From assembly GCA_017431825.1 (NCBI GenBank), contig JAFRKI010000002.1, forward strand, positions 62,001-126,000: 64,000 nt of DNA, given 5' to 3'. Position numbers and translations under genes: made by a program. A model generated the notes under the pieces. The model was not told the origin of the DNA. It was given only the letters and a program-made list of their open reading frames with translations, and did no database searches. Below, one piece after another: positions 1,799 through 47,798 of this stretch (the first letter of the stretch is position 1; the number at the start of each line of letters is the position of its first letter). This DNA is from Erysipelotrichaceae bacterium (GTDB lineage: Bacteria > Bacillota_I > Bacilli_A > Erysipelotrichales > Erysipelotrichaceae).

Positions 1799-2893
1799 CT
1801 AATCGATGATGATCGGCCCTTTTAATTCTTTTCTTAAATAGGCTTTACGGTCCTTCAATAACGAGGCATAGAGATTGGCCGCTTTCCATTCTATCTCTTT
1901 ATGGCGGGAAGGAAGGTTCTTGAACTGCGTAACGATACGGAAGTCTTCATCTTTCAGCGACCGCAGATATTCCCGTCCTTTCCTGTTGAAACCAAGTATC
2001 CTTACGAAGGACAGCTTTTCATCATTCCTTACGTCCTGTTTCTTTATCTGATTCATTATATTGAGAGATATCCTGGCTATCCTGGCTCTGGTGTATCTCT
2101 TTGACAGGGAAGCATTTATGAATCCTTCGTAATCGTCATATTCCTGAGCATTCCTAATAAGCAGGCTTTCGATGCCTTCGCTTACCAGGAAGATCTCTTT
2201 AAGATCGTCTCTGGACATGGTCAACAGAAGTCTTTGAAGATAAGGGTAAAGCTCTTCGATGAAATGAGGATCTTCTATCATTACAGGCGTCTGTCCCGAG
2301 ACATCCTTCCCTTCCTTTAAAGCCTCTCTGATGGCCTTTGCGCTGGCTATTTCGTGAAGTTCCAGATCATTATAGGAATTGGTCCTTTGTATGGAAAAAG
2401 GCTCTATTTTCATATCTTTAAGGGCTTTGAGATAAGCTACGGCCAGTATATCGTTGGGATAAAGGGATCCTGCCAGCAGGCCATAAGCCTTGGGATAGGA
2501 AGTCCCTTTATCCATCTCTTCCTTAAGGTGGTCGACGTTGATGCTGTGATCCGCAAAGTTCTTTAGTTCTTCAAGGTTGTTGGTCTCGGAGCCAAAGACC
2601 AGATTATCGGCTTTTAGAAGATCAAGGATCTCCACGCTCCTTCTGCCGAATACCGATGCACTCTGATTGGTATAGATGAAAGGCAGCTCTGCCACGAGGT
2701 CCACGCCGTGTTTAAGTGAAGCCTCTGTCTTTAGGAATTTGTCGATGACGGATACTTCTCCTCTTTGACTGAAATTGCCGCTGCAGACCGCTATCAAGAG
2801 ATCCGGCTTGGTCAGTTCCCGGGCTTTTTCTATATGATAGATATGACCGTTGTGGAAGGGATTGTATTCAACGATTATTCCTGTAATATTCAT
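1799..2893 (-). CDS. tmcAL: tRNA(Met) cytidine acetate ligase TmcAL (YlbM family)
   Basis: 364 aa, full length. TmcAL acetylates C34 of elongator tRNA-Met using acetate and ATP. The nucleotidyltransferase motif EYNPFHNGH lies at residues 9-17, GNFSQRG at 39-45 and FGSE at about 100-103, all typical of the YlbM/TmcAL family. The ATG lies exactly 6 nt after a TATAAT on the minus strand and has no Shine-Dalgarno, so the mRNA is predicted to be leaderless. It diverges from yceD across a shared symmetric promoter and converges on glgP. Confidence 0.93.
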   Translation of the reverse strand: MNITGIIVEYNPFHNGHIYHIEKARELTKPDLLIAVCSGNFSQRGEVSVIDKFLKTEASLKHGVDLVAELPFIYTNQSASVFGRRSVEILDLLKADNLVFGSETNNLEELKNFADHSINVDHLKEEMDKGTSYPKAYGLLAGSLYPNDILAVAYLKALKDMKIEPFSIQRTNSYNDLELHEIASAKAIREALKEGKDVSGQTPVMIEDPHFIEELYPYLQRLLLTMSRDDLKEIFLVSEGIESLLIRNAQEYDDYEGFINASLSKRYTRARIARISLNIMNQIKKQDVRNDEKLSFVRILGFNRKGREYLRSLKDEDFRIVTQFKNLPSRHKEIEWKAANLYASLLKDRKAYLRKELKGPIIID

Positions 2894-2915
2894 GGATTAA
2901 TTATATAATGATTTC
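2894..2915. promoter_or_regulatory. Symmetric bidirectional -10 for tmcAL (-) and yceD (+)
   Basis: The palindrome ATTATATAAT (2900-2909) contains overlapping TATAAT hexamers on both strands. Exactly 6 nt separate it from the ATG of yceD at 2916 and from the minus-strand ATG of tmcAL at 2893. Neither gene has a Shine-Dalgarno. Seen directly; divergent leaderless transcription is inferred. Confidence 0.75.
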
Positions 2916-3380
2916 ATGAAAGTCCTGCTTAAAGATTTGACCGGCATCACCGAACGCAAGGCCTTTGAGATCGATGAGGAGCATCTTGAAGTCAAAGACA
3001 ACATCTTTCTGAAAGGTCTTAAGGATGTCAAGGGCTATATCGCATTCTACTATGATCTCTCGGAGAAACTTTTCATCGACTATCATCTGGAAGGATCGAT
3101 GATCTGCCCCGATGCCATCACTCTGGAAGACGTGGAAGTGCCGTTTACAGTCGGAGAAGACCGGGAAGTAGTCACCAAAGAGAACGAGGAAGGCTTCTAC
3201 CTGATAGACGGAATGGAGCTTAACGAACTTGTGATATACATCGTTTCCCCGGAAGCGCCGATTAGTGTTGAAAAAAAGGGTGAAACAATGTATTATAGTG
3301 GAGACGGTTGGACAATTCAGAGCGAGGAGGAGTATAATAAACACTCCAGGGAAAGAATTGATCCCAGACTTGAGAAATGA
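2916..3380 (+). CDS. yceD: YceD/DUF177 family protein
   Basis: 154 aa, soluble, acidic. Members of the DUF177/YceD family almost always sit directly upstream of rpmF and have been linked to rRNA or large-subunit biogenesis; the exact function is not settled. The family is recognised from the KGYIAFYYDLSEKLFIDYHLEG core, the later acidic segment and the adjacent rpmF (26 bp downstream). The start is the ATG 6 nt after TATAAT with no SD (leaderless), whereas rpmF has its own strong SD. The two genes are probably co-transcribed up to the terminator at 3555. Confidence 0.85.
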   Translation: MKVLLKDLTGITERKAFEIDEEHLEVKDNIFLKGLKDVKGYIAFYYDLSEKLFIDYHLEGSMICPDAITLEDVEVPFTVGEDREVVTKENEEGFYLIDGMELNELVIYIVSPEAPISVEKKGETMYYSGDGWTIQSEEEYNKHSRERIDPRLEK

Positions 3381-3406
3381 TTAGAGTATAAGGAGGAAGA
3401 ATAGAA

Positions 3407-3556
3407 ATGGCTGTTCAGCAGAGAAGAACTTCCAAGACACGCAAGGCAAAAAGAAGAACTCATTACAAACTGAGCGCTCCGGCAATGGTCAAATGTCCGT
3501 CCTGCGGAGAATACAAACTGGCTCACAGAGTTTGTCCGAGTTGTGGTGCTAAATAA
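3407..3556 (+). CDS. rpmF: Ribosomal protein bL32
   Basis: 49 aa. Starts [17 protein letters not shown], an Arg/Lys-rich rRNA-binding tail, followed by a zinc ribbon with two CxxC pairs (CPSC and CPSC, residues 30-33 and 43-46). This is the zinc-binding form of bL32; no Cys-free paralogue is visible here. AAGGAGGA lies about 9 nt before the ATG, a strong RBS. The gene sits 26 bp after yceD and is followed immediately by a hairpin terminator that overlaps its stop codon. Confidence 0.97.
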
Positions 3557-46823: not shown

Positions 46824-47392
46824 ATATCGAAACTGTGGTCTTTCTTCCACTGTTTATATAGGCTCTTGTAGTAGGCAAGGGCTTTTTTCTCGCCGTTGTC
46901 CTTCAGGTATTCAAGTAAGATGAAATGTCGTCTGGCATTCTCTTCGCCCATGAAGATCCTGTCTCTGCCGTTTTTAAGGAATTCATATGCGGAAGCATCC
47001 GTATATTTGTCTTTTTTATATATCTTGGATGCGGCTATTTTGTCGCATACGGCTTCCAGAACATAATTAAAAGGCATTTTTCTAACTATCAGCTGAACAT
47101 TGGGATAATCCTTGTCTATCCAGTATTCCCAGTGATGCTTGTTCCTGCCGGAATGATGCAGCCAGCCAAGGGAATAGCCGACGGCTTCCTTTTCCGCATC
47201 TATCGGTGATCTGAATCCCTGATAATACTTAACTCCGGACCAGAACTCGACCGGTGAGTATTTCGAAAGGTCATGAAGAAGGCCCTGCTTATACAATCCG
47301 CAGCGGAAACAGAGTTTCATAACTTCCATTTTATGCCTGGTAATGGTAGAGAGGTGACCGTTGAACCTTTCAAAAAAGCCTTTATTTTCCAT
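46820..47392 (-). CDS. DUF5662 family protein (HD-like metal motifs)
   Basis: 190 aa, soluble. Conserved His/Asp pattern LLHDLSKYSPVEFW, WLHHSGRNKHHWEYW and DKIAAS suggests an HD-like metal site. Function unknown. Leaderless start 6 nt after a minus-strand TATAAT, divergent from nusB with a mirror-symmetric promoter. Confidence 0.8.
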   Translation of the reverse strand: MENKGFFERFNGHLSTITRHKMEVMKLCFRCGLYKQGLLHDLSKYSPVEFWSGVKYYQGFRSPIDAEKEAVGYSLGWLHHSGRNKHHWEYWIDKDYPNVQLIVRKMPFNYVLEAVCDKIAASKIYKKDKYTDASAYEFLKNGRDRIFMGEENARRHFILLEYLKDNGEKKALAYYKSLYKQWKKDHSFDI

Positions 47393-47429
47393 TACTTAAT
47401 TATATATCGCTTTGTAGTATAATTAAGGC
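47393..47429. promoter_or_regulatory. Mirror-symmetric divergent leaderless promoters, DUF5662 (-) and nusB (+)
   Basis: Perfect 10-bp arms CTTAATTATA (47395-47404) and TATAATTAAG (47418-47427). Each holds one TATAAT, 6 nt from its ATG (47392 minus, 47430 plus), and the other arm's CTTAAT sits at its -35 position at 17 bp. Confidence 0.75.
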
Positions 47430-47798
47430 ATGAATCGTCATCAATACAGAGTGGGGATCGTATTTGCTCTTTATAAACATTTATTGCTTAACAAGGATCT
47501 CAAAGAGTGTTTTTCGGATGATTTCAATGAAGATGACGATGAATTCCTGAACGGGATCTGCAATGATCTTATGGTCAATATAGATACTTATATAACGGAA
47601 ATAGCCGGCCATCTTAAGCGCTGGTCTTTTGAGCGTCTTAACTATGTGGACCAGGCAATACTGCTTGAAGCTGTCAGTGAGATCAGTCTCGGTCTTAATA
47701 ACAAGAATATCGTCATCGATGAAGCCATCAGGATAGCCAAGGAATACTGTGACGAAGATTCATACAGGTATATAAACGGGGTACTGGACAATCTATGA
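47430..47798 (+). CDS. nusB: Transcription antitermination factor NusB
   Basis: 122 aa all-helical protein: RHQYRVGIVFALYKHLL and the C-terminal LNNKNIVIDEAIRIAKEYCDEDSYRYINGVLDNL region (read in parts) are NusB-like. Works with NusE/S10 in rRNA antitermination. First gene of a long operon; overlaps xseA by 4 nt. Confidence 0.93.
   Translation: MNRHQYRVGIVFALYKHLLLNKDLKECFSDDFNEDDDEFLNGICNDLMVNIDTYITEIAGHLKRWSFERLNYVDQAILLEAVSEISLGLNNKNIVIDEAIRIAKEYCDEDSYRYINGVLDNL

Follow-up and report, generated by a model that had tools for sequence, protein, structure and literature searches.

Bidirectional promoters of the symmetric −10 type have been described by Warman, Grainger and colleagues (PMC12825309, PMC10268837). 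Their start sites are commonly spaced by 10, 18 or 23 bp (PMC12825309), and most descriptions of these promoters so far treat bidirectionality as following from −10 symmetry. In the five E. coli bidirectional promoters tested, basal activity was too low for exclusion to matter, and competition required strong activation of one direction (PMC12825309). A second described system is that of leaderless genes in which a TA-like −10 signal lies beside the start codon (Zheng et al. 2011, PMC3160421). Here, we analyzed the gap between the divergent genes tmcAL and yceD in a stretch of 64,000 nucleotides from an Erysipelotrichaceae bacterium, hereafter the window. We propose that this 22-bp gap is very probably a minimal bidirectional promoter of the 23-bp class, in which both transcripts begin at start codons. 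The sequence, its conservation, a genome-wide leaderless signature, natural splits and the recurrence of the layout were analyzed directly.

Results

Geometry of the tmcAL/yceD gap

As read directly from the window, the site at 2891-2918 consists of CAT GGATTA ATTATATAAT GATTTC ATG. A sequence-only reading of this DNA had located the decamer at 2900-2909, with TATAAT on each strand lying 6 nt from an ATG (2916 on the plus strand, 2893 on the minus strand), and these coordinates and spacings were confirmed. On the plus strand, the 6 nt at 2910-2915 separate TATAAT from the yceD ATG; on the minus strand, 2899-2894 separate it from the tmcAL ATG at 2893-2891. The whole 28 bp had also been called symmetric in layout, which held for the equal spacings; the true palindrome, however, is limited to the decamer, and the 6-nt flanks are of the same length but non-complementary. 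The start-to-start distance, which corresponds to predicted +1 to predicted +1, was 23 bp.

We observed no good −35 match near the site, the best being 3/6 on either side. A TGn extension was likewise absent from the tmcAL/yceD site, and a Shine-Dalgarno (SD) sequence was absent from both strands within the 22-bp gap. A T at −18, seen on both strands in the window, was dropped from consideration because it was not conserved in relatives. The features are listed in Table 1.

Table 1. Positions of the analyzed features in the window
Feature	Position	Strand	Basis
tmcAL, tRNA(Met) cytidine acetate ligase-like (HIGH_NTase1)	1799..2893	−	PF05636, E 1e-98
tmcAL start codon ATG and predicted +1, C (pyrimidine) at −1	2891..2893	−	predicted start
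Palindromic decamer ATTATATAAT, two overlapping −10 elements	2900..2909	both	sequence; no variation among the 24 genus loci spaced at 23 bp
−10 element TATAAT for tmcAL	2900..2905 (minus reading 2905-2900)	−	sequence; same enrichment as for yceD; separate box in split relatives
−10 element TATAAT for yceD	2904..2909	+	sequence; TATAAT-N6-RTG enrichment in the genome
The only two base pairs common to both −10 elements (T2904-A2905; −12/−11 of each promoter)	2904..2905		sequence
yceD start codon ATG and predicted +1, C (pyrimidine) at −1	2916..2918	+	predicted start
yceD-like gene, first gene before rpmF	2916..3380	+	homology via relatives
Strong sigma-A-like promoter TGGACA-18-TATAAT (11/12) in the yceD 3′ end, probably for rpmF	3309..3338	+	
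rpmF (ribosomal protein L32), normal SD aggagga at 3391-3397	3407..3556	+	
Second divergent leaderless-type pair, ORFs of 190 and 122 aa, each ATG with its own separate TATAAT at 6 nt, 38 bp between the starts	47390..47432	both	

The genome is placed in the Erysipelotrichaceae, its nearest named contigs coming from an Erysipelotrichaceae MAG, 'Solobacterium sp.' MAGs and Candidatus Colivicinus equi. Both flanking ORFs, tmcAL and the YceD homologue, are real. The YceD of this genus has diverged beyond detection by the Pfam YceD model, PF02620: the window's yceD product showed no direct match to the model, whereas its homologues in related genera passed the cut-off.

Leaderless-type promoters in the genome and its relatives

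A genome-wide survey was then employed, which covered 1.24 of 1.68 Mb, taken in stretches. In these 1.24 Mb, TATAAT ending exactly 6 nt before the RTG of an ORF of at least 100 aa was found at 59 sites, compared with 21 sites at a spacing of 7 nt and 2-16 at other spacings. Among the 59 sites, 93% carried T/C at −1 and 95% carried A at +1; a TG extension was present in 11, and −35 sequences showed no enrichment over random positions. These features suggest that the genome uses leaderless promoters driven by the −10 element alone, with their starts predicted from this signature. The 6-nt peak was repeated in relatives within the genus (9 sites in 200 kb), whereas 200 kb from other genera of the family contained no TATAAT at 6 nt, the commonest spacing there being 21-25 nt. 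Such −10-only leaderless promoters were common in the genus (the own genome and the genus samples L171-L230 and L241-L250) and were not seen in the sampled sister genera. The difference between the genus and its sister genera would represent a switch in promoter and translation style within one family.

The decamer ATTATATAAT occurred at four of the 59 sites, three of which belong to two divergent pairs. Both fused divergent pairs of this genome carry it, compared with 1/56 of the other leaderless-type promoters. In several more divergent pairs of the genome, each gene has a leaderless-type box of its own, and about 35-75 bp lie between the starts.

Recurrence of the 28-bp module between unrelated genes

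We searched 36 genomes of the genus for the module CAY-N6-ATTATATAAT-N6-RTG and found 53 copies in 30 of them. A first-order Markov model predicted 0.0023 copies per genome, or ~0.09 over the 36, and the reversed control of the search gave no copies in the same genomes. When 20 further module sites were fetched, all 20 were located at the starts of divergent ORFs, including one locus whose contig stops just inside one ORF (L157) and one where an ORF reaches the end of the stretch (L164). Nine divergent gene pairs carry the module, namely tmcAL/yceD and eight functionally unrelated others: ung/folC, murE/pfkB, GH25/GNAT, SNase/GH25, msrA/ispD, TraB/HD-like, M19 peptidase/nucleoside-deoxyribosyltransferase-like and ttcA-like/truB, where the names ung, folC, HD-like, deoxyribosyltransferase-like and ttcA-like were derived from reading the sequence and not from a family match. 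In the rest of the family, the module was found in 1/237 genomes. In a class sample outside the genus, 4/294 genomes matched, three of the four without a long ORF pair. As an isolated case, two long divergent ORFs (203 and 281 aa) flank the 28-bp module in a genome of another family (L256, G351).

Two perfect TATAAT boxes can be superposed or joined only with overlaps of 4, 2 or 0 bp. The 4-bp overlap, ATTATAAT (21 bp), was found at 14 sites in 13 of the 36 genomes, and abutting boxes (25 bp, 0-bp overlap) were found at none in the same set. The decamer with 6/7-nt spacings was found at 16 sites. Since these compare with 53 sites for the 2-bp overlap, the 23-bp arrangement is the preferred but not the sole form. 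Exact symmetry is also not required everywhere, because the second fused decamer of this genome, at pfkB/murE (G000:C14:213025-213053, outside the window), has 6/7-nt spacings; it also has a GTG start. As judged from these sequences, chance does not account for the layout, which is a genuine, conserved design.

Exclusive occupancy and the question of coupling

Because the two −10 elements overlap by 2 bp, simultaneous occupancy of the site by two polymerases is impossible. From this exclusivity, it had been predicted that the two genes would be either coupled or mutually exclusive, and a related idea is that the shared −10 was selected for a regulatory purpose, so that tmcAL (tRNA modification) and yceD (rRNA/ribosome assembly) oppose or balance each other. 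Physical exclusivity does follow from the overlap, and most members of the genus, among them basal lineages, retain the arrangement. The TmcAL tree, in which many forks were weakly supported, placed lineages that carry the 23-bp form basally in the genus and required about four changes to a separated state. This repeated separation, with promoters retained, together with the use of the same module by the eight unrelated pairs, points to compaction rather than to selection for coupling. Moreover, E. coli bidirectional promoters do not compete at basal activity, only under strong activation (PMC12825309), and a promoter of its own seems to serve rpmF, both in the window and in some close relatives, the TGGACA-18-TATAAT motif inside yceD being also present in L036 and L050. 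On this evidence, the predicted coupling was not supported, and we regard a regulatory purpose as unlikely. The lack of regulatory coupling, like the transcription start sites and the activity on both strands, is what these sequence comparisons would predict.

Conservation and natural splits at the tmcAL/yceD locus

Next, we compared the locus in the 30 genus genomes, mostly metagenome assemblies, in which both the tmcAL and yceD starts were located; ORF starts were set by homology or by pattern, and not by a gene caller. In 24 of the 30, the decamer was unaltered and the two starts were exactly 23 bp apart. One further genome has the decamer with starts 24 bp apart (L046), and another has altered, closely set boxes with starts 25 bp apart (L034). 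Across the 24 loci with 23-bp spacing, the ten columns of the decamer were invariant, compared with a mean pairwise identity of 45% in the N6 flanks and an identity at 4-fold sites of 35% in tmcAL and 45% in yceD. Conservation ended sharply at the hexamers, the spacing to the start codons was fixed at 6 nt, and the base at −1 was a pyrimidine in 24/24 loci for yceD and 23/24 for tmcAL, in line with +1 at the start codon. The comparison indicates that the decamer is under strong purifying selection across the genus.

Where the two genes have moved apart, the boxes were found separately. TATAAT lies exactly 6 nt from each start both in L037, with starts 67 bp apart, and in L043, with starts 853 bp apart. 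In L049 and L056, the tmcAL box is at 6 nt (as TAAAAT in L049) and the yceD box at 9 nt, and L044, where no yceD was found nearby, retained the box 6 nt from tmcAL. Since the separated genes each keep their own box, mostly at 6 nt, the palindrome is best read as two superposed promoters.

These splits also bear on whether only one strand is productive at the decamer, with the other gene depending on a leadered promoter located upstream, within the opposite gene. Forward and reverse activities can differ with flanking −35 elements (PMC12825309); at this site, neither side has a −35 element. Both halves of the decamer are equally invariant, the 22 bp hold no SD for either gene, and tmcAL and yceD each keep a box of their own when separated, so that a single productive strand seems quite improbable. 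One direction of the putative promoter could nevertheless be much weaker, and promoters within the opposite gene may give rise to leadered transcripts.

A dyad operator, in which the palindrome is bound by a dimeric DNA-binding protein and does not represent a pair of −10 boxes, would be consistent with a perfect and strictly conserved palindrome. However, loci with separated genes show single TATAAT-type boxes, most of them at 6 nt from a start, in place of the palindrome, which does not persist as a unit irrespective of where the promoters lie. Other leaderless promoters of the genome have TATAAT without a palindrome, and neither the sharp end of conservation at the hexamers nor the fixed 6-nt distance to the start codon fits an operator, which was rejected as highly improbable. 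A chance AT-rich sequence is already refuted: although the decamer alone is weak evidence against chance (0.19 copies expected in the window, where a single copy is unremarkable, and 8 copies in 1.24 Mb of the genome), 53 modules stand against ~0.09 expected in 36 genomes, and the decamer is invariant in a genus whose 4-fold sites are near saturation.

Discussion

The bidirectional leaderless promoter proposed above would function as follows. The housekeeping sigma factor, with a sigma-A-type polymerase, would read TATAAT on either strand of ATTATATAAT, and the polymerase would bind in one orientation or the other. Each transcript is predicted to begin with the start codon itself, whose first base lies 7 nt beyond the last base of the corresponding −10 element. 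Two leaderless mRNAs would result, with ribosomes beginning at the 5′-terminal AUG. Both promoters fit in 22 bp because neither a −35 element nor a leader is needed. Occupancy would be exclusive at any instant, but as long as the promoters work at ordinary strength, tmcAL and yceD are probably independent in their expression. Compaction in a genus already using leaderless promoters is the probable origin of this architecture, which has arisen repeatedly between unrelated gene pairs. The sequence-only reading had stated that one palindromic −10 drives two leaderless genes; conservation, the leaderless signature, the splits and the recurrence all supported the symmetric −10 region, which strictly comprises two boxes with a 2-bp overlap.

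On balance, we favor the broader view that the genus evolved a reusable 28-bp start-to-start module as a standard joint between divergent housekeeping genes, which would give two leaderless mRNAs from 22 bp and would incorporate a weak exclusive toggle. Intergenic regions could shrink to 22 bp once promoters had become leaderless and independent of a −35 element. The about 50 natural replicates, together with the natural splits, provide material on whether polymerase competition at a shared −10 matters.

Three known systems are closest to this locus. At the tmcAL/yceD loci of a sister family (f2, L001-L027), the same two genes are divergent, and a TATAAT-type promoter is present on the yceD side; in contrast to the present site, those genes are about 130-170 bp apart (by tblastn ends), with SD-like leaders and separate promoters.

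The present site resembles the leaderless genes of Zheng et al. 2011 (PMC3160421) in lacking an SD, in carrying TATAAT about 12 nt ahead of the start codon and in the genome-wide excess at this spacing, and it belongs with them in that its −10 elements would be placed for +1 at the start codon. It differs in that two leaderless genes share overlapping signals, and in that the excess was found only in this genus within the sampled part of the family.

As in the symmetric −10 bidirectional promoters (PMC12825309, PMC10268837), the −10 region is readable on both strands through overlapping −10 elements that lie on opposite strands and share 2 bp, the predicted starts are 23 bp apart, which is one common spacing, and the polymerase engages only one orientation at a time. 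Unlike in those promoters, both halves are perfect TATAAT without a −35 element, both predicted starts are start codons, and the promoter fills the intergenic region. Compared with the open-licence literature, beyond which a precedent may exist, the module also differs in its fixation throughout most of a genus and in its reuse at unrelated gene pairs. The site therefore presents a perfectly symmetric case, with no other recognizable promoter elements, that is held by strong purifying selection throughout the genus and is found again at many loci.
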